A stretch of 64,000 nucleotides of DNA. It comes from Marinicella marina. GTDB lineage: Bacteria; Pseudomonadota; Gammaproteobacteria; Xanthomonadales; Marinicellaceae. The position numbers and the translations under genes are program-made. The stretch's first letter is position 1. Every line of letters begins with the position of its first letter. The stretch lies in NCBI RefSeq assembly GCF_030065545.1, contig NZ_JASJNC010000003.1, forward strand, positions 248,001 through 312,000, read 5' to 3'. Below are positions 7,944-22,886 of this stretch, one piece after another. The notes under the pieces were generated by a model. That model ran no database searches, was not told the DNA's origin, and saw nothing but the letters and a program-made list of their open reading frames with translations.

Positions 7944-9437
7944 TCAACGCTCTTGCGCCAAGGCCTCCTCAACGGGCTGCTCAAACAAGTGAGGCTTCGG
8001 ACGGCCCAGATAAAACCCTTGCAGATAATTAACACCCAACTTGATGGCTAAGTCAGTTAATTCTGCATCAGAACAGTATTCAGCAACCACTTCTAAGTTT
8101 TTGTTTTGGGCCATTTTGACTATGCCTCTGGCCAATTTACGCATTTCTTTGTTGTGACTGATGTTTTCCATGATGGTTCGATCAATTTTGACAAAATCTA
8201 TAGGCAAACTGAACAAGCGTTCGATGTTGGAATAGCCTTTGCCTAAATCATCCATGCCCACCTGACAGCCCAATTCGTGCAACTGCAAAATAAACTTGGT
8301 GATTACCCTGGCATCAATAACCACCTCATTTTCCAATAATTCAAATTGAATCAAGTGTCCCACTCCAGATTTTTTTATTTTTTGAAACAAATAATCACAG
8401 GTTCTTTTGTTATTGATGTCAGTGATGCTGAAATTGATGGTTACAATGACATTGTGCTTAGAGGCAAAGTCAACCGCGTGTTTGACCATGATTTGTGACA
8501 ATAAATAATACACATTGGCTCGGTGTGCCAAGGGCATAAAAACACCAGGCATAGAAATCACATTACCTTGTTCATCGACCAACCTCGATAAACATTCATA
8601 TTTGGCCACAGTCAAGGAGTCGGCATGAAATATGGGTTGAAAATAAGCCACAACGCGTCGCTCGTGAATCCCTTGTAACAGCGTTTGGGTTAAACGCAAC
8701 TCCTTTTTATAGGTGGCTGGCAGCTGGCTTTGGCGGTTGTCTATCAAATAAAACTGTAACTTGTTGTGCTCAGCCTCTTGCAATGCCATGTTAGCCAAGA
8801 TGTAGGCATCCTCTTTCTGTCGCACCGCACCCATTGTGACATTGATGGCAATGTAGTCGCCATCACCCACTTGGTACTGGGTACTCATCAACTTCTTAAC
8901 CAGTGCTTTGGTGATTTGAGCAATGGTGTCGTAACTGGCGAATTGGTCTTCCAAGGTTGAAAACACCCCTGGCTGGATGTAGTAATGTTGGGTTTTACGT
9001 GCCAATTCGTGTTCAAACCTGGTTAAAACACTGGCAACTTGCTTCATCACATCATCGGTCACAGCGGGACCGTAGCTGTTGAGGATGCTGTTGTAATTGG
9101 TGATTTTCATGAATGCCAAATTGGTGTGTTCGCTTTTTTCTAAATCACGAAGCAGTTTTTGCTGATTGGGTAAACCGGTGAGTTGATCTCGGTTGGCAAC
9201 CTTTAATAGCTTCAACCAATGTTGTTGTGCTTGCCGAAAAGTCCAGAACCAAAGCAACCCAACCAAGGCTCCTGTGGACAACAACAAAGCAGCAATTCCA
9301 ATCATGACATGAACGGCTTGACTGGTTGAGTGCATGTAAAGGTAGTAAACAGAGAAAATCGCAATCGACAGCAGAATGCCGGCAGAAACCGCCAAAATCA
9401 ATGGCCTGTGTGGATATACTGTGTTATCAAACGACAT
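7944..9437 (-). CDS. Membrane protein with degenerate GGDEF and EAL domains
   Basis: Probable cyclic-di-GMP phosphodiesterase or sensor. Two transmembrane helices (about residues 10-36 and 43-66) precede a GGDEF-fold domain that begins RDQLTGLPNQQKLL but has no GGDEF signature, so cyclase activity is unlikely. The C-terminal EAL domain (about 240-490) carries ECL in place of EAL, then a conserved N-F-S, the ELLENE segment, DDLGKGYSN, VKIDR and QGFYLGRP, so most catalytic acids appear present. The ATG at 9437 is preferred because a GGGGGTGA ribosome-binding site lies about 13 bases upstream; a TTG at 9461 would overlap that site. It is transcribed away from tdk. Confidence 0.88.
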   Translation of the reverse strand: MSFDNTVYPHRPLILAVSAGILLSIAIFSVYYLYMHSTSQAVHVMIGIAALLLSTGALVGLLWFWTFRQAQQHWLKLLKVANRDQLTGLPNQQKLLRDLEKSEHTNLAFMKITNYNSILNSYGPAVTDDVMKQVASVLTRFEHELARKTQHYYIQPGVFSTLEDQFASYDTIAQITKALVKKLMSTQYQVGDGDYIAINVTMGAVRQKEDAYILANMALQEAEHNKLQFYLIDNRQSQLPATYKKELRLTQTLLQGIHERRVVAYFQPIFHADSLTVAKYECLSRLVDEQGNVISMPGVFMPLAHRANVYYLLSQIMVKHAVDFASKHNVIVTINFSITDINNKRTCDYLFQKIKKSGVGHLIQFELLENEVVIDARVITKFILQLHELGCQVGMDDLGKGYSNIERLFSLPIDFVKIDRTIMENISHNKEMRKLARGIVKMAQNKNLEVVAEYCSDAELTDLAIKLGVNYLQGFYLGRPKPHLFEQPVEEALAQER

Positions 9438-9533
9438 GTTATTATTATCTTCACCCCCCAATCATAATAACATTTTTTTAACGCAACGCATAATATATCG
9501 AAGTTTTCGGTCAATTATCGACATTTTTGACCA

Positions 9534-9550
9534 GCTGTGAGAGTCACAGC
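9534..9550. promoter_or_regulatory. Inverted repeat between the EAL gene and tdk
   Basis: Perfect 7-base arms GCTGTGA and TCACAGC are separated by GAG, with CCA/TGG continuing just outside. It lies in the 161-base divergent gap, 49 bases before the tdk start. The half-sites resemble CRP/FNR-type TGTGA/TCACA, but the 3-base spacer is shorter than the 6 bases of a CRP site. It could be an operator for either gene or a small hairpin. Confidence 0.4.
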
Positions 9551-9598
9551 ATGGTCTTATTCTGTTAAAATATATCGCTTTGTAAAACACACCCCCGC

Positions 9599-10216
9599 AT
9601 GGCCAAATTGTATTTCTATTATTCCGCTATGAACGCTGGAAAAACCACACACTTGTTGCAATCGAGTCATAATTATCGAGAGCGTGGTATGCAGACATTA
9701 ATCTTGTCATCATCAATTGATGATCGTTTTGGCCAAGGAATCGTGAAATCCAGAATTGGCATTGAATCACCGTCCATCGTTTTCAACCAAAGTGAAAATT
9801 TATATGATTTGGTCTTGGCGCAAGACCCAGTCGATTGCGTGCTGGTCGATGAAGTACAATTTTTGAGCAAACCACAAGTTTATCAATTAACAGAAATTGT
9901 CGATAAAATGAACATACCAGTTTTGGCTTATGGTTTGCGCACTGATTTTCAGGGTGAGTTGTTCGAAGGCTCCCAATATTTACTGGCTTGGGCTGATGAA
10001 TTAAGAGAGTTAAAAACCATTTGTCACACCGGTCGCAAAGCCACCATGGTGGTCAGGATCGATGACAGCGGTAAAGCCATAAAATCAGGCGCTCAAATCC
10101 AAGTAGGTGGTAACGAGAGGTATGTGTCTGTTTCGCGGGCTGAATACAAGCGCATCTTTCATGACCAAGGCAGCATCAAACCCTCACAAATTTCGCTGCC
10201 CTTGGATGACATTTAA
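9599..10216 (+). CDS. tdk: Thymidine kinase (type II, Tdk)
   Basis: ATP-dependent phosphorylation of thymidine for nucleotide salvage. The 205 residues equal the E. coli length and align along their whole span: P-loop SAMNAGKTT (residues 9-17), the DDRFG segment, [10 protein letters not shown] with the catalytic Glu, [22 protein letters not shown] and [12 protein letters not shown]. The zinc-binding lasso looks altered: where E. coli has Cys-X-Cys before GRKA and Cys-Arg-Lys-His near the end, this protein has CHTGRKA and SRAE. The ATG start leaves 16 bases between tdk and fmt, so the two may be cotranscribed. Confidence 0.97.
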
Positions 10217-16592: not shown

Positions 16593-17279
16593 ATGAAAAT
16601 ATTTATATTAGAGGATGATGTCGATCAGGCTGAATTGATCAGTCATTGGCTGCAAGAAAAAAATCATGAATGCCAATCATTCACCAACGGCCGTGACTTC
16701 ATTGCGAAAGTACCCTATGAACAACCAGATTTGTTGGTTTTAGATTGGAACTTACCCGGCATCAGTGGGCTAGAGGTATTGAACTGGGTGCGTTCCAGTG
16801 AGTACAGTGATTTACCGGTGATCTTTGTGACCACCCGCAACCACGAAGATGACTTGGTCAGGGCTTTGGACCAAGGTGCTGACGATTATTTGGTCAAACC
16901 AATCAAACAAAGTGAACTGATTGCTCGATCTCATGCGCTGTATCGTCGCCACAACCAAGCACAAAATAAACTGGTATCAATTGAGCCTTTCACCTTTAAC
17001 CACAAAGAAGGCACCATCTCTTTTAACGGCAATGAAGTTAAACTCACAGCCAAAGAATTTCAATTGGCTAATTATTTTTTCAGTAACCAAGACCGTTTGA
17101 TTTCACGAGACTACCTGCTTGAGACCATTTGGACCAAAAGCGCCTCAATCACCACCAGAACCGTTGATACCCACATCAGCCGGTTAAGAAAAAAACTGGC
17201 TTTGGATGGTTCAACCGGTTGGAAGCTGGTCTCGGTCTATCACAAAGGTTATCGTTTGATTGAAGTCAAAACAGAATAA
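16593..17279 (+). CDS. OmpR/PhoB-family response regulator
   Basis: Two-component transcription regulator of 228 residues. The receiver domain (about 1-120) has the acidic pocket EDD (residues 7-9), phospho-acceptor Asp51 in VLDWNLPG, a Thr in FVTTRN and Lys in DYLVKP. The C-terminal winged helix (about 130-225) has LTAKEFQLANYF, a TRTVDTHISRLRKKL recognition helix and GYRL. The ATG at 16593 is chosen over an upstream TTG at 16578 because it begins directly with the receiver strand KIFILEDD. It heads a five-gene run with a coiled-coil protein, a BON/OmpA-type membrane protein, a Ras-like GTPase and a hybrid kinase; the kinase is its likely partner, though that is inference. Confidence 0.93.
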   Translation: MKIFILEDDVDQAELISHWLQEKNHECQSFTNGRDFIAKVPYEQPDLLVLDWNLPGISGLEVLNWVRSSEYSDLPVIFVTTRNHEDDLVRALDQGADDYLVKPIKQSELIARSHALYRRHNQAQNKLVSIEPFTFNHKEGTISFNGNEVKLTAKEFQLANYFFSNQDRLISRDYLLETIWTKSASITTRTVDTHISRLRKKLALDGSTGWKLVSVYHKGYRLIEVKTE

Positions 17280-17299
17280 AACAACAGGAGCAATCTAAA

Positions 17300-17695
17300 A
17301 TGTCAGATAAAAACAATGATTCTGTCGATCAAATAAGAGACATTTTGTTTGGTGAACAAACCAAAAACATAGAAAAAAAATTCGCCAAAATGGAGGCTGA
17401 CATCAACAGCCAATTCAATGCACTGAAAAAGCAATTGGAAGCCATCAATAAACAACTCAGCGCCAACATGAAAAGCATGGAAAATGCCAACAACAAGAGC
17501 CTTGATAATCTACAGGCAGATCACAGCGACCGCATGCAAGCGATTGAGCAGGAATTAAAAAACCGCATCATAGAAACAGAAGCCAGCATCCTCGGTGAGT
17601 TACAAGAGAAATCGAACGATTTAGATCACAGATTGACCCACCGCAATGACTTATCTGAGCTGCTAAGAAAAATGGCTGATCAGATTTCAGAGTAA
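17300..17695 (+). CDS. Small coiled-coil protein in the GTPase cluster
   Basis: I do not recognise a named family. The 131 residues are almost entirely helical and strongly charged, with heptad-like spacing of Leu, Met and Ile from about residue 20 to 125 (for example FNALKKQLEAINKQLSANMK). There is no signal peptide or membrane helix, so it should be cytosolic. An AGGAG site precedes the ATG, and it ends 7 bases before the OmpA-type gene. Its position suggests a scaffold or oligomerising partner for the GTPase, the membrane protein or the regulator; no function is demonstrated by sequence. Confidence 0.8.
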   Translation: MSDKNNDSVDQIRDILFGEQTKNIEKKFAKMEADINSQFNALKKQLEAINKQLSANMKSMENANNKSLDNLQADHSDRMQAIEQELKNRIIETEASILGELQEKSNDLDHRLTHRNDLSELLRKMADQISE

Positions 17696-17702
17696 TTTCA
17701 AA

Positions 17703-19505
17703 ATGAGCAACGATCGCGAAAAACTCAAAGCATTGTTGCTGAATGAGGAAATTGCGCAAATCAAGGCATTACAAAAATTACTCAATGACAAACAAGCACT
17801 GACTGAAAAAATATCCGAGGTCATTGATCCGGCCACAGATTTGGCCATCGCCAAAAACCCAAAATTTCAAAAAAAATTCTCCAAAATAGATTCAAAGGCC
17901 TACGTCAGAGCCATCAAGGCCAACAAACAAACCTTCATTGATGCCTTGTTGCCCATCATTGGTCCGATGATCAGGAAATCAGTTACATCAGCCATCAGGC
18001 GTTTTGTTTCCGATGTCAACCGAGCCGTTGAAATGGGGTTTTCTATACAGGCCCTGAAATGGCGCTGGAAAGCTTTCAGAACCGGCGTGCCTTTTGCTGA
18101 AATTGTGTTTAATAACACCATTGAATACCAAGTCCAACAAGTCTTCTTGATTGACAACAACAGCGGTTTATTGATTGCATACGCTGGTCATGAGGAGTAC
18201 CTGTTACAGGACAAAGACGCCATGTCCGCCATGCTTACAGCGATTCAAGATTTTGTCAAAGACTCAGTTAACTCAGGTGGCTCAGGTTTAGCAGCAGCGG
18301 AAATTGACGATGACATCTTGTGGATTACAGCCGGTAACAAAGCGCAAATAGCAGCCATCATCAAAGGCGCACCGACACAGCGGCTGCGTGAACGCATGTT
18401 GGCTGCCTCAGAAGATATTCACATCGAGTTTTATCAGGAACTAGATTCTCAAGAGCTGTGGGAAAACAACCACGAACTGGAAAGCGAACTTGAGAAGTTG
18501 TTGCTGACTAAGTCCCAATCAGATGATGAGGAAAGCCCAAAAGGCATCAATTATTGGCCTTGGGTCATGGTAATCGCTGGCTTATTGCTGTGGTGGGGTT
18601 GGTCAACTTATCAACAACACCAAACTGAGCAAAAACTACTTGATTCATTGCGCAACACACCGGGTTTCGTTTTAACGAATCTCAGCCATTCCAATGGCCA
18701 ATACACGGTTGAGGGACTGCAGGATCCAATGGCTGAGATCGCGCCCCAAGACGTCGAACTGACCATCAACAGTACCCCTTTTATTTCTTTAGAAGACCCA
18801 ATTCTGCGCAAACGGGCTGAACAAATCCTTTCAGATGATTCACTGCACGTTGAAGTCAACAACGGCGTGATGATAATCACCGGAGAGCACAATAATGATG
18901 AGGCTTACAAGCAAAAACTGTTACAGTTAAAAAGCCAGCCTGGAATCAATTCTGTTGATGACAGGGTAAGCCACCAGCCCAAAGCTGATTTAGCCGGCTT
19001 TTTACAACAGAATAGTCTGCCGCCAAGCATAAAAGCCACTGAAAATGCTGGCATCATTGAATTATCCGGCTATGCCACCAAAAGCATGTTGGATGAGTTA
19101 ACCGCAGAACTCAAGAAGTACGGTGGTATTGACGCCCAAAAAGTTGAGCTGGTTGTACTGGATGAAATAAAACAAAGCATCAAGCAAACTCCGCTCATTA
19201 TGACTAACCCAGCTGCATTGAATCAGCCTCAACAAAACCAGTTAAATGCGTTGATTGAACAGTTTCAGAAATTAATTAACTTACAACCCGGAGTAGGTAT
19301 AATGCTGATCGGTAAAAGTGATTGCCAAGGTTCAGCTAAGCAAAGCAACAAGTTCAGTCAGATGCGTGTTAACACAGTCAGTGCTTATTTATCTGAGAAC
19401 GGTTTGAAGGCAGCTACTTTGAGGCCCAAAATCAGTGCCTGCGAGAACAGTAACAGTGTAATAGATGCCAGAAAAATCGGCGTCTGGTTTGAGGTGGTTC
19501 AATGA
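17703..19505 (+). CDS. Membrane protein: cytosolic sensor-like domain, one helix, BON-like and OmpA-like domains
   Basis: A 600-residue bitopic protein. Residues 1-135 are helical and basic. Residues about 140-245 form an alternating strand/helix domain (QQVFLIDNNSGLLIAYAG, then a long helix, then ILWITAGNKAQIAAIIKGAP) that looks like a roadblock/longin-type fold. An acidic linker leads to one membrane helix (about 284-301). Outside lie BON-like repeats (about 366-425 and 440-490) and an OmpA-like C-terminal domain (about 505-600, IMLIGKSDCQGSAKQSN then QMRVNTVSAYL), which in known members binds peptidoglycan. Its last 4 bases overlap the small GTPase gene. With the GTPase it could form a membrane-tethered switch and effector pair (inference). 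Confidence 0.85.
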   Translation: MSNDREKLKALLLNEEIAQIKALQKLLNDKQALTEKISEVIDPATDLAIAKNPKFQKKFSKIDSKAYVRAIKANKQTFIDALLPIIGPMIRKSVTSAIRRFVSDVNRAVEMGFSIQALKWRWKAFRTGVPFAEIVFNNTIEYQVQQVFLIDNNSGLLIAYAGHEEYLLQDKDAMSAMLTAIQDFVKDSVNSGGSGLAAAEIDDDILWITAGNKAQIAAIIKGAPTQRLRERMLAASEDIHIEFYQELDSQELWENNHELESELEKLLLTKSQSDDEESPKGINYWPWVMVIAGLLLWWGWSTYQQHQTEQKLLDSLRNTPGFVLTNLSHSNGQYTVEGLQDPMAEIAPQDVELTINSTPFISLEDPILRKRAEQILSDDSLHVEVNNGVMIITGEHNNDEAYKQKLLQLKSQPGINSVDDRVSHQPKADLAGFLQQNSLPPSIKATENAGIIELSGYATKSMLDELTAELKKYGGIDAQKVELVVLDEIKQSIKQTPLIMTNPAALNQPQQNQLNALIEQFQKLINLQPGVGIMLIGKSDCQGSAKQSNKFSQMRVNTVSAYLSENGLKAATLRPKISACENSNSVIDARKIGVWFEVVQ

Positions 19506-19978
19506 TTTCAAAAAAAGTCTGCATGATAGGGCGCTTTGCGGTTGGAAAAACTTCATTAGTCGATCGCTTTGTAAAAAATCACTTTTCCGAAAAATACCAA
19601 ACCACTGTTGGTGTTTCGATTGCCACCAAAATCATCGACCCATCAACTAAATTTGTCATCTGGGACATCGCTGGCTTCGAACAAGACAGTCATTATAAAC
19701 CTTATTTACGCGGTGCCCATGCCATCATATATGTTGTTGATGCCACCGAACCAGAATCGCTGCATACACTCAATGACATCATCAAAGATTCACCTGAATT
19801 ATTGGAATTGCCAGCTGTTTGCTTTATCAACAAAGCCGACTTAGTCGATGACATTAAGTGGCAAGATGCATTCACCGAACAAGTTCGTGCCATCTCCAAA
19901 CAAAACTTTTGGACCAGCGCCAAATCTGGCGAAAACGTGGCACACGGGTTTGAGACTTTGGCCCATTTATTGTTGTGA
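19502..19978 (+). CDS. Ras/Rab-like small GTPase
   Basis: Stand-alone GTPase of 158 residues, similar in layout to eukaryotic Rab/Ras proteins. G1 is GRFAVGKTS (residues 10-18), G2 is the Thr in YQTTVGV (32-38), G3 is WDIAGFE (54-60), G4 is NKAD (110-113) and G5 is TSAKSG (138-143). The catalytic Gln of Ras (in AGQE) is replaced by Phe59, so hydrolysis may be slow or helped by a partner. There is no membrane helix and no lipidation motif. It overlaps the OmpA-type gene (ATGA) and the hybrid kinase gene (GTGA) by 4 bases each, so all three are translationally coupled. Confidence 0.9.
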   Translation: MISKKVCMIGRFAVGKTSLVDRFVKNHFSEKYQTTVGVSIATKIIDPSTKFVIWDIAGFEQDSHYKPYLRGAHAIIYVVDATEPESLHTLNDIIKDSPELLELPAVCFINKADLVDDIKWQDAFTEQVRAISKQNFWTSAKSGENVAHGFETLAHLLL

Positions 19979-21384
19979 AAATCCCCCAGGGCATTTTTAA
20001 TCGCGTCTATGATCATTACCAAGCTTCAGACTGGTGCTTAATTACACTGGATCGTAAAAACACCGTCAAAAACTTCAACCGCAATGCTGAAACAGCTTTT
20101 GCACTAAGCCATCAGCAAAATAACATCCGCGATGTGATTCCTCTGCTGGCTGCAGAATCATTGGACGAAGAGTTCATGCTGCCTTTTTTTAACCACAATG
20201 AAAAGGTTTTTGATGTGCACTTTCTGATTGAGGGTGACTACAAACACCTCATTATGGTACCCATCGACATGCTCCATAAACAAGTCCAATCCAGACAACA
20301 AATAGCCCACGAACAAGAGATTGAAAAATTAAGACTAGAGGGTTTATTTGTTGCCCTTGAGGGTGCACACGAAGAACTCAAAAAGGCCAATTCAGCCAAA
20401 TCATTTTACATCTCTGCCTTGTCGCATGAAATTGGCAACCCAATCACTGCCATCAAAGGTTATAACCAGCTATTAATGGAAGGCGCCATAGAACAAGAAG
20501 CTGCCACTAAAGTATTTCAAAACAACATCGAGAAGATCCAACAAATCATCACCCAGACCTTGGATTATGATCAACAATACAACACCCAATACAGCCGACA
20601 ACTGGCACCAGCACAGGTAATTGATCAATTATTCAATGACTTCAGCATCCAAGCCAGTAACAAAGGCCTCAAACTAATCAATCAAGTCGACCCAGAAGTC
20701 ATCATCAAAACCAACCAAACCAAGTGGTCACAAATATTCACCAATCTCATCAGCAATGCCATCAAGTACACCGAAAAAGGCAGCATCACAGTGAAATCTC
20801 AGCTTGAAGATGGTTTGTTACATATTGATACCATTGATACGGGCTGTGGCATGAGTCCAGCTTTTCAAAGCAAATTGTTCACTGCATGGAGTCGCGAGAA
20901 AAAAAGTCAATCGGCCGGCAACGGCATTGGCCTAGTCATTTCGAAAATGCTGGCCGAACAAATTGGTGGTGATCTGATCTTACATTCAAGTAATCAGCAT
21001 GGCAGTCGCTTCAGGTTTTCAGTGACCTACCACCAAGCATTGAACGCCCAACGTATTTTGTTGGTGGATGATGATGCTGATTGTTTGAGTTTGTTTGATT
21101 TCTATTTGACCGAAGCCGGTCACGAAGTCACCACGGCCCACTCCATCCAGAGCATCGAACAAAAACTGGCTGAAAAGGATTTTGATGTGGTATTAACAGA
21201 TTTGAATTTAACCGATGGTTCAGTCGATCAAATACATCAAAAACTTAAATCTCAAGTTGCCAGAGTGGTCATAATGACCGCCAACCCCACCAAACAAAAA
21301 CGCCATGAACTGGAGACACTGGGATTCGACCAGGTACTCAACAAGCCTTTAACTCAAGAACAAATAGTGAACAGCGTCGCATAA
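19975..21384 (+). CDS. Cytosolic hybrid histidine kinase with C-terminal receiver
   Basis: A 469-residue signalling protein without membrane helices. Residues about 5-100 look like a PAS-type sensor, a helical linker follows (105-145), then the dimerisation domain with H-box LSHEIGNPITAIKG (His151). The ATPase domain has NLISNAIKYTEKG, DTGCGMSP and GNGIGLVISKML. The receiver (about 360-469) has VDDDAD, phospho-acceptor Asp409 in LTDLNL, a Thr in IMTANP and Lys in LNKPL. The start is GTG, overlapping the GTPase stop (GTGA). Since the kinase lacks its own membrane input, the GTPase or the membrane protein may provide it (inference). The OmpR-type regulator of the cluster is the probable output. 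Confidence 0.9.
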   Translation: MKIPQGIFNRVYDHYQASDWCLITLDRKNTVKNFNRNAETAFALSHQQNNIRDVIPLLAAESLDEEFMLPFFNHNEKVFDVHFLIEGDYKHLIMVPIDMLHKQVQSRQQIAHEQEIEKLRLEGLFVALEGAHEELKKANSAKSFYISALSHEIGNPITAIKGYNQLLMEGAIEQEAATKVFQNNIEKIQQIITQTLDYDQQYNTQYSRQLAPAQVIDQLFNDFSIQASNKGLKLINQVDPEVIIKTNQTKWSQIFTNLISNAIKYTEKGSITVKSQLEDGLLHIDTIDTGCGMSPAFQSKLFTAWSREKKSQSAGNGIGLVISKMLAEQIGGDLILHSSNQHGSRFRFSVTYHQALNAQRILLVDDDADCLSLFDFYLTEAGHEVTTAHSIQSIEQKLAEKDFDVVLTDLNLTDGSVDQIHQKLKSQVARVVIMTANPTKQKRHELETLGFDQVLNKPLTQEQIVNSVA

Positions 21385-21480: not shown

Positions 21481-21513
21481 AAAATTAATATTTAAGCAAT
21501 TGGAGGAGTGACA

Positions 21514-22434
21514 ATGGAAGATACCATTTTCTATATAATATTGGGAGTTTTTGGGATTATATTTCTCAGAAGCGTCTTTGTGATCGTGCCGCAGGGTTTT
21601 GAGTATACGGTAGAACGGTTTGGCGAATTTCGTCGGGTATTTCCCCCCGGACTGGGTTTAAAAATGCCTTTCGTTGAAAGGATTGGCCGCAAAATAAACA
21701 TGATGGAACAAGTCGCCAACGTACCTTCACAGGAAGTCATTACACGTGACAATGCTGTGGTTACTGTCGATGGTGTGGTTTTTTATCAAATTCTTGATTC
21801 AGTCAAAGCAGCCTATGAAGTCAATCGTTTGGAATATGCCATATTGAACTTAACCATGACCAACATCCGTACGGTCTTGGGCGCCATGGATTTGGATGAA
21901 TCCTTGTCTAAAAGAGATGAAATTAATCACCGATTATTGGCTGTGGTCGATGAGGCCACCTCACCTTGGGGCGTGAAAGTCACGCGGATTGAAATCAAAG
22001 ACATCAAACCGCCGCACGATCTGGTGGCATCAATGGCCAGACAAATGAAAGCCGAGCGTGAAAAAAGAGCACAGATTCTTGAAGCTGAAGGTTCACGCCA
22101 ATCGGACATTTTACAAGCCGAAGGTAAAAAGCAAGCCGCCATCTTGGAGGCAGAGGGCTTGAAAGAGGCCGCCTTCCGCGAGGCCGAAGCGCGCGAACGT
22201 GAAGCCGAAGCTGAAGCCAAAGCAACTCACATGGTATCAAAGGCCATCGCAGCCGGCGACGTCAACGCGATTAACTACTTTGTGGCACAGAAATACCTGG
22301 ATCAGTTTGGTAAGTTTGCTGATTCACCCAACCAAAAAACCATGATCCTACCGATGGAAGCAACCCAAATTTTAGGATCCCTGGCAGGCATCACAGAACT
22401 GGCCAAAGACCTCACACAGGATAAAGAATCATGA
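21514..22434 (+). CDS. SPFH/band-7 (stomatin-like, QmcA-type) membrane protein
   Basis: Membrane scaffold of the prohibitin/stomatin superfamily. The 306 residues have one N-terminal hairpin or helix (about 3-24), an SPFH domain (FVIVPQGFEYTVERFGEFRRVFPPGL onward), and a long Ala/Glu-rich coiled coil (about 185-245) that drives oligomerisation. The ATG at 21514 is preferred over GTG at 21508, because the GGAGGAG ribosome-binding site overlaps the latter. Its stop overlaps the NfeD-like gene. The pair corresponds to E. coli qmcA-ybbJ; proposed roles are membrane microdomain organisation and control of proteases such as FtsH. Confidence 0.93.
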   Translation: MEDTIFYIILGVFGIIFLRSVFVIVPQGFEYTVERFGEFRRVFPPGLGLKMPFVERIGRKINMMEQVANVPSQEVITRDNAVVTVDGVVFYQILDSVKAAYEVNRLEYAILNLTMTNIRTVLGAMDLDESLSKRDEINHRLLAVVDEATSPWGVKVTRIEIKDIKPPHDLVASMARQMKAEREKRAQILEAEGSRQSDILQAEGKKQAAILEAEGLKEAAFREAEAREREAEAEAKATHMVSKAIAAGDVNAINYFVAQKYLDQFGKFADSPNQKTMILPMEATQILGSLAGITELAKDLTQDKES

Positions 22435-22886
22435 TCATGGGGTTCTTATTAGACCTAACACCCTGGCATTGGCTCACGGCTGCGGTGTTTTTGTTGGTGA
22501 TTGAAATGGTGGTTGGGTCTTATTACTTGTTGTGGGTCAGCTTTGCCGCATTCTTAGTGGCCATAATTCAGTGGATGTTCGGCATCAGTTGGGGCAGCCA
22601 AATGGTGTTGTTTTCAGCCATATCCGTGATGTCAGTGATTGCTTGGTACCTATACGACCTCAAACGCGACAAAACCAGCACCAGACCCAATTTAAACAAA
22701 CGCGGTCACCAATACATTGGAAGAACATTTCAACTCAGCCACCCCATCATCAATGGCGTGGGCAAAATAAATGTCGATGATTCTACTTGGAAAGTCAGGG
22801 GCGATGATGCGCCACTGGATACCACTGTAAAAGTGGTGGACATCGACGGCACCATATTAATTGTAAAAATACTTGGAGATAAATAA
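22431..22886 (+). CDS. NfeD-like (YbbJ-type) membrane protein
   Basis: Partner of the SPFH protein encoded upstream. Two or three membrane helices lie within residues 10-75, followed by a soluble OB-fold domain (about 90-151) with GRTFQLSHPIINGVGKI and WKVRGDDAPLDTTVKVV, typical of NfeD C-termini. It belongs to the short class without a protease domain. The ATG overlaps the SPFH stop by 4 bases; a second ATG two codons later is also possible. Such pairs are widespread and thought to act together in membrane microdomains. Confidence 0.92.
   Translation: MIMGFLLDLTPWHWLTAAVFLLVIEMVVGSYYLLWVSFAAFLVAIIQWMFGISWGSQMVLFSAISVMSVIAWYLYDLKRDKTSTRPNLNKRGHQYIGRTFQLSHPIINGVGKINVDDSTWKVRGDDAPLDTTVKVVDIDGTILIVKILGDK

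Follow-up and report, generated by a model that had tools for sequence, protein, structure and literature searches.

A conserved five-gene unit of Marinicella marina built around a Rab-like small GTPase of the Group 1 Rup type, a predicted wall-binding membrane protein and a histidine kinase

The window analysed here is a 64,000-nucleotide stretch of the Marinicella marina genome, in which the list of open reading frames and a reading of the sequence place five genes on one strand at positions 16593-21384, encoding an OmpR-type response regulator, a small helical protein, a bitopic membrane protein, a Ras/Rab-like small GTPase and a cytosolic hybrid histidine kinase. These five genes are one real conserved unit; what is observed directly is which genes it holds, their order and overlaps, their absence as a block, the conservation of domains and the swapping of one module. 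On balance it is probable that they form a small-GTPase signalling system of the Group 1 Rup type, with a histidine kinase as output and an OmpR-type regulator of its own, working by the mechanism proposed below. The core of such systems was already described in 2014 (Wuichet and Søgaard-Andersen, 2014; PMC4316618), and a domain-level account together with a lineage-specific regulator is added here. The features are the following.

16593..17279, + strand: OmpR/PhoB-type response regulator with receiver and winged helix, ATG start (Pfam Response_reg 1.3e-27, Trans_reg_C 8.7e-21)
17300..17695, + strand: small charged helical protein of 131 residues, probably a coiled coil (only weak Pfam matches, below the cut-offs)
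17703..19505, + strand: bitopic membrane protein of 600 residues (AlphaFold2, Foldseek, comparison with roadblock profiles, conserved D540 and R555)
18093..18449, + strand: codons of its likely roadblock/longin-like domain, residues 131-249 (predicted order of helices and strands; M177, L178, I181 and F184)
19502..19978, + strand: Ras/Rab-like small GTPase of the Rup Group 1 type, 158 residues (Pfam Ras 1.2e-22; G3 Gln lacking)
19975..21384, + strand: cytosolic hybrid histidine kinase of 469 residues with a PAS-like N-terminus, HisKA (His151), HATPase and receiver, GTG start (Pfam HisKA, HATPase_c and Response_reg)
19975..20394, + strand: predicted PAS-like module at the kinase N-terminus, with Gln108-Gln109 (conserved Gln pair, stand-alone gene copies, AlphaFold2 and Foldseek)

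A gap of 20 bases separates the regulator gene from that of the small helical protein and one of 7 bases the latter from the membrane-protein gene, followed by two 4-base overlaps, ATGA at 19502-19505 between membrane protein and GTPase and GTGA at 19975-19978 between GTPase and kinase. An earlier account made from the letters alone (the sequence-only reading) had described five consecutive genes of these types, the last three overlapping by 4 bases each; open reading frames and sequence agree with this, Pfam places the regulator, GTPase and kinase in these types, and both overlaps are found. Its observation is confirmed, and its interpretation, in which a GTPase switch set by the membrane protein feeds a kinase that phosphorylates the regulator, is partly supported. 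It missed a likely roadblock/longin domain in the membrane protein, a PAS-like module in the kinase, which is found as a gene of its own too, and the absence of the G3 glutamine from the GTPase. The weak Pfam matches of the small helical protein point towards a coiled coil, and the gene itself is conserved.

Conservation was followed in 61 genomes, that of the window included. The GTPase and the membrane protein are both present in 33 and both absent from 26, with one genome holding either of them alone in each direction (G022, G025), both at contig ends. Left out of this count are three weak GTPase rows (G046, G049, G056; E 8e-12 or weaker) and two membrane-protein rows that cover the OmpA part only (G037, G039; E 6e-4 or weaker); with the weak rows kept, the tallies are 37/61 genomes for the GTPase and 36/61 for the membrane protein. 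Thirty-two loci of the same order are available (L021-L052), of which three have lost at least one gene to a contig end (L041, L051, L052). The arrangement putative coiled-coil gene, membrane protein, GTPase and kinase is kept in all 29 uncut loci, so that the grouping of the five genes is not chance. All five are adjacent, regulator included, in 25 of the 29, the remaining four (L024, L026, L028, L029) having no adjacent regulator.

Six genomes of the same genus lack the system, and the five genes are missing at the site in 6/6. Flanking aldehyde dehydrogenase and SPFH genes lie ca. 540 and ca. 300 bases apart in two of them (L219, L220), with none of the five genes in between, while SPFH and NfeD are also missing at the site in the other four (L221-L224). 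In these genomes the GTPase, membrane protein and regulator were searched for genome-wide, and the coiled-coil protein and kinase were judged at the site. In the six, and likewise in two more genomes that lack the membrane protein (G018, G030), the best-scoring regulators share 31-35% identity with that of the window; regulators at the locus in the same family share 53-88% with it. Since the regulator is missing along with the other four genes and the regulators that remain are of such low identity, it has been lost or gained with the unit in this genus. This counts as evidence for its membership of the unit in this lineage, not for its phosphorylation by this kinase. A search of genomes for co-occurrence, put forward as a check in the sequence-only reading, has in this way shown a GTPase tied to a bitopic wall-anchored protein and a cytosolic kinase as a conserved unit, absent as a block in genomes of the genus and including the regulator in this lineage.

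The breadth of the system was assessed by a pattern search of species genomes, which gave at least 545 confirmed relatives of the cytosolic part of the membrane protein; 80 were kept (L053-L132), some being named copies of genomes of the first set (e.g. L053 and L034). Their record titles include Gammaproteobacteria, Nostoc, Acidobacteria, Nitrospirales, Planctomycetes, Desulfobacterales, Latescibacterota and others. All 76 loci with room for it have a relative of the coiled-coil gene no more than 400 bases upstream of the membrane protein, and 72 of 74 have a GTPase no more than 1 kb downstream. An OmpR-type regulator occurs within 1.5 kb upstream in only 21/70 and hence is not part of the core; it is a lineage-specific fifth part. 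An even draw of 299 genomes from the phylum, each at least 95% complete and that of the window among them, has the cytosolic part in 30.

The GTPase carries the motifs G1, G2, G4 and G5, and its G3 motif reads WDIAGFEQ, the catalytic glutamine being replaced by Phe. It had earlier been called a complete Ras-like GTPase, a description that stands for four motifs and falls at the G3 glutamine. Among 23 sequences of the order, that of the window counted in, none has this glutamine, and it is absent from 73 of the 74 GTPase frames of L053-L132, all of which possess G1 and NKxD. By sequence, the solved structures nearest to it are those of eukaryotic Rabs (Rab23, 4e-18; Rab31; Rab5), the best 60 of 641 all being Rab-type. 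No match to Robl_LC7 (PF03259) is found in the window genome at E<=0.001, and 33/61 of the relatives searched have one somewhere. A reading as an MglA/MglB pair was rejected on these grounds, the Rab-type nature of the best 60 of 641 solved relatives and the lack of an MglB-type Robl_LC7 match in the genome at that threshold. Additional GTPase genes are seen in two wider loci, as a tandem pair beside the membrane protein (L085:8789-9277 and 9415-9918) and as a second GTPase on the opposite strand (L077:1070-1567).

The membrane protein was modelled by AlphaFold2 from 50 sequences (predicted local distance difference test, pLDDT, 83.9; predicted template-modelling score, pTM, 0.45). The modelled layout consists of cytosolic helices (1-127), a roadblock/longin-like domain (ca. 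131-249), a transmembrane segment within helix 285-317, one or more BON-like regions (ca. 322-483) and an OmpA-like, wall-binding domain (ca. 497-600). A hydrophobic 19-mer threshold of 1.2 is passed by 48/50 rows, and the window maximum of 1.12 falls just under it, in a protein for which helix 285-317 is modelled. The OmpA-type outer end named in the sequence-only reading holds for the family, 40 of the 50 members scanned matching OmpA at E<=1 (best 6.5e-15), though the window protein itself lies below the Pfam cut-off (22.8 vs 27.2 bits). Within the OmpA-like domain D540 is kept in 44/50 and R555 in 50/50 aligned sequences, a pair that we take to be the peptidoglycan-binding residues of OmpA proteins. 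The BON assignment holds less firmly, being weak in the window protein (E 0.022) and matched by 13/50 members, with OsmY and DolP among the best Foldseek matches of the model alongside OmpA/Pal-type domains and YscD.

The domain at residues 131-249 is modelled as helix 131-139, strands 142-151 and 157-162, helix 171-189, strands 198-201, 204-209 and 214-222 and helix 226-242, with ten-residue pLDDT means of 61-90. This predicted order is that of the roadblock fold and also that of a longin with an extra first helix. Roadblock and longin folds are circular permutations of each other (PMC3521125), and from its predicted fold order the cytosolic domain is likely to be of the roadblock/longin type. 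Among the best 50 Foldseek matches listed, 5ldd_E stands at rank 14 (E 2e-4; template-modelling (TM) score 0.53 by target length) and 5ldd_B at rank 19 (E 3e-4; TM score 0.52, likewise by target length). Chain A of 5LDD is Mon1 (PMC7703760) and chain C is Ypt7 (PMC5216073), which leaves Ccz1 for chain B by elimination; 5ldd_E is taken as a second Ccz1 copy. Mon1-Ccz1 is the longin-dimer guanine nucleotide exchange factor (GEF) of a Rab (PMC5216073). The Ccz1 match would fall on residues 131-249, because no other part of the model has such an order of helices and strands. Helix 171-189 carries M177, L178, I181 and F184, invariant in 23/23 rows of an alignment (A1) drawn from a whole-protein search and free of motif bias; L053-L132 were found by a pattern containing the MLTAI motif, so that invariance of the helix there is biased and was left unused. 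The docking surface for the Rab in Mon1-Ccz1 and TRAPP is built from the first helix of each of the two longin domains (PMC5216073), and by analogy helix 171-189 may correspond to such a docking helix.

Comparison of profiles lends moderate support to the roadblock/longin assignment. A cleaned roadblock profile (53 sequences, family rows removed) aligns with the cytosolic domain in register over 77 columns in hhalign (P 2.1e-4, Prob 45.7, score 29.3). By comparison, six unrelated profiles score 11-16, the reversed profile scores 17.9, and 199 column shuffles average 11.3 (maximum 30.1). The first roadblock profile, of 22 sequences, had given hhalign E 0.0037 and Prob 9. An iterated roadblock search took up family rows round by round (0/50, 2/55, 14/74, 152/223), which is only a hint, and the deeper iterated profile (Prob 99.85) was discarded as circular, its last round having absorbed 152 of these membrane proteins. 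A profile search of the cytosolic domain against solved structures gave nothing usable. In a Thermoleophilia bacterium (L117:6929-7825) the cytosolic roadblock/longin-like part is a 299-residue protein, too short for a membrane or OmpA part, with the GTPase gene directly after it; this short form points to the cytosolic part as the core that handles the GTPase.

The first 140 residues of the kinase are modelled by AlphaFold2 as a PAS-like domain followed by a helix with Q108-Q109 (pLDDT 77.6, only 56 over residues 101-110). Foldseek of this N-terminus returns the PAS sensors WalK, FixL and phytochromes (E ca. 2e-4, TM 0.3-0.5), and a weak profile match to the sensor protein 3a0s is obtained (E 0.0097), so that residues 1-100 are predicted to adopt a PAS-like fold. 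Q108 is present in 49/50 rows and Q109 in 46/50. The module is next after the GTPase in 56 of the 70 loci with at least 600 bases downstream, one (L129) being a fragment; the profile behind this count was trained partly on those loci, and an earlier order-only profile had found the module in 54. It is fused to a kinase in 38 of the 56 and forms a stand-alone gene of 120-168 residues in 13, namely eight from Nostoc and relatives, three from Nitrospirales, L072 and L085, with a separate kinase further down in all eight Nostoc-type loci. Other fusions join it to a nucleotide cyclase (L120), an HD-GYP domain (L099) or a second PAS domain (L090, L092). A module that stays constant beside the GTPase, with varying enzymes behind it, is the main reason for placing the output downstream of the GTPase. 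In loci lacking the module the next gene can encode a GGDEF protein (L097), an HD-GYP protein (L118) or a sigma-54 regulator (L073, L114, probably L130). Three acidobacterial loci have a protein of 187-200 residues in its place directly after the GTPase, with no Pfam match at E<=0.01 (L070:8035-8634, L077:4563-5123, L109:9179-9751). In two loci of a sister genus (L021:6932-8887, L047:10490-12421) a sixth gene after the kinase encodes a receiver with EAL, of the cyclic di-GMP (c-di-GMP) phosphodiesterase type, which the kinase might also act on.

These GTPases were named Group 1 Rup from computational analysis (Wuichet and Søgaard-Andersen, 2014; PMC4316618). Their neighbourhoods are described as containing a coiled-coil protein, a protein with an unknown domain, an inner-membrane helix and OmpA, and an output enzyme, either a c-di-GMP enzyme or a histidine kinase, with an invariant Gln in its N-terminus; the GTPases are described as lacking the G3 Gln, and no Rup member was experimentally characterised as of that paper (PMC4316618). 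The window unit shares the GTPase without G3 Gln, a gene for a probable coiled-coil protein (here the small helical protein), the unknown domain followed by transmembrane segment and OmpA, the output with invariant N-terminal Gln, and occurrence in gammaproteobacteria and Nostoc, among others; its Q108/Q109 are likened to the invariant Gln by the description in the paper, not by its logo. It differs in the OmpR-type regulator, which goes unmentioned in the paper's account of these neighbourhoods (PMC4316618). Further differences are that the output N-terminus is here resolved as a predicted PAS-like module that can be a separate gene, that the unknown domain is assigned to the likely roadblock/longin type, and that cyclase, HD-GYP and sigma-54 regulators appear as further outputs or neighbours. 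The sequence-only reading had known of no characterised system of this composition, which remains correct of experiment as far as the 2014 account goes but not of computational description, and an unprecedented system was rejected in view of that account (PMC4316618). No experimental study of such a system was found in the open-access literature, judged by titles and abstract openings.

In the mechanism proposed, the membrane protein would grip peptidoglycan by its OmpA-like end, sense the state of the wall or envelope and expose, on the cytosolic side, its roadblock/longin-like domain together with the conserved helices attached to it. This domain, probably an exchange factor or a recruiting platform, would bind the Rab-like GTPase and adjust its nucleotide state to envelope conditions. 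The GTPase would in turn bind the PAS-like module and alter the activity of the kinase, with the invariant Gln pair of the module perhaps supplying the glutamine missing from the GTPase active site. The kinase would then phosphorylate the OmpR-type regulator, directly or via its own receiver and a histidine phosphotransfer (HPt) protein encoded elsewhere, to change transcription.

A wider formulation is a transmembrane Rab-type G-protein relay in bacteria, composed of a peptidoglycan-anchored longin/roadblock GEF, a Rab-like GTPase and a pluggable PAS-like module, effector or GTPase-activating protein (GAP), carried on kinases, cyclases and c-di-GMP hydrolases. This is put forward tentatively and is more doubtful than probable. 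If the relay is real, the Rab-longin GEF pairing of eukaryotic membrane traffic has a bacterial counterpart in envelope signalling; longin domains are thought to have descended from prokaryotic roadblock-type GTPase partners (PMC3521125). A bacterial small GTPase would then carry an envelope signal to interchangeable outputs, which bears on the origin of the Rab-longin pairing. Should the membrane protein have such a domain and the PAS-like module be an effector, the pathway would be testable with four proteins.

Several findings weigh against the proposed system. The Ccz1 match comes without a Foldseek residue range, its placement on residues 131-249 being deduced from the model; one of the 199 shuffles outscored the real roadblock alignment; the clean roadblock hidden Markov model brings only 2/161 family frames below E 0.01; and the 25 of 54 Pfam families listed for 50 members do not include Robl_LC7. 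Neither the N-terminus of the window kinase nor two stand-alone modules have a Pfam PAS match, no PAS-like module can be recognised behind the GTPase in 14/70 loci, and L082 has a kinase after the GTPase but no such module. A GTPase is missing from the directly downstream position in two planctomycete loci (L083, L089), and the scarcity of the regulator in the wider loci counts on the same side. Kinase and regulator both come from very large families, for which being neighbours is in itself no proof of phosphotransfer, and HPt was looked for within the Pfam scans only. We infer every contact, the direction of signalling, the GEF and GAP roles, the phosphotransfer and the signal.

The main rival reverses the direction: the kinase, its PAS-like module and Gln pair serving as GAP, would control the GTPase, whose output would act through the membrane protein on envelope or polarity. 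It can draw on the actinobacterial conservons, in which the GTPase is posited as the output and which are described as lacking a regulator (PMC4316618), on the invariant Gln of the module as a conceivable GAP residue and on the 49/70 wider loci without an adjacent OmpR-type regulator. A module constant by the GTPase, fused to an enzyme that varies between kinase, cyclase and HD-GYP, instead fits an output downstream of the GTPase, and the OmpR-type regulator is absent together with the unit in this genus; reversal is judged unlikely.

It is more improbable again that the regulator is an unrelated neighbour or an autoregulator, the true partner of the kinase lying elsewhere through its own receiver and HPt. 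The hybrid nature of the kinase, with a receiver of its own, would suit this explanation, as would the receiver-EAL gene after the kinase in two sister-genus loci scanned and a regulator that is adjacent in only 21/70 wider loci and non-adjacent in 4/29 of the order. Against it stand the 25/29 loci of the order with an adjacent regulator, and its absence at the site in 6/6 system-less genomes of the genus, where the best remaining regulators are 31-35% identical. A shade less credible still is an envelope or polarity scaffold of membrane protein, coiled coil and GTPase, like MglA/MglB, with kinase and regulator only controlling operon expression. Although GTPase, coiled-coil protein and membrane protein vary least from phylum to phylum, and Ras-like GTPases act in polarity elsewhere (PMC4316618), the PAS-like module directly after the GTPase, fused or stand-alone, appears to be part of the GTPase system and not of an independent kinase. 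The preferred reading is that of a Group 1 Rup-type system with kinase output and its own regulator.

Such a system can be set beside three others. The actinobacterial conservons (CvnA-D) likewise tie a small GTPase genetically to a histidine kinase and a roadblock-type protein, but consist of a membrane kinase (CvnA), a separate roadblock protein (CvnB) and an MglA-type GTPase (PMC4316618). The unit described here has a soluble kinase, a likely roadblock/longin-like domain within a predicted wall-anchored bitopic protein, a Rab-like GTPase and a regulator, and no separate MglB-type roadblock protein, CvnC protein or membrane kinase is among the Pfam matches listed for its five proteins. The MglA/MglB polarity module also pairs a Ras-like GTPase with a roadblock-type partner, but the putative roadblock-like domain of the window is part of a membrane protein and its GTPase is closer to Rab-type relatives, as noted above. 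With the eukaryotic tri-longin Rab GEF Mon1-Ccz1 it would share a Rab-like GTPase with a longin-type domain partner; it differs in being bacterial, wall-anchored and a single protein, with a predicted domain of roadblock or longin topology and a putative GEF role.

Scans of the locus gave 17 promoter-like sites (mean 9.9 in shuffles) and 8 terminator-like sites (5.4 in shuffles), neither of them informative. The closest named relative of membrane-protein residues 1-280 is a Marinicella record (locus L053), at 86%. Directly downstream of the unit, at window positions 21508-22886, lies a pair of SPFH and NfeD-like genes, which is retained at the site in two genomes without the unit and missing there in four. 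In those four an opposite-strand frame of 199-231 residues occupies the site (L221:4036-4653, L223:4026-4640, L222:2446-3138, L224:2434-3030).

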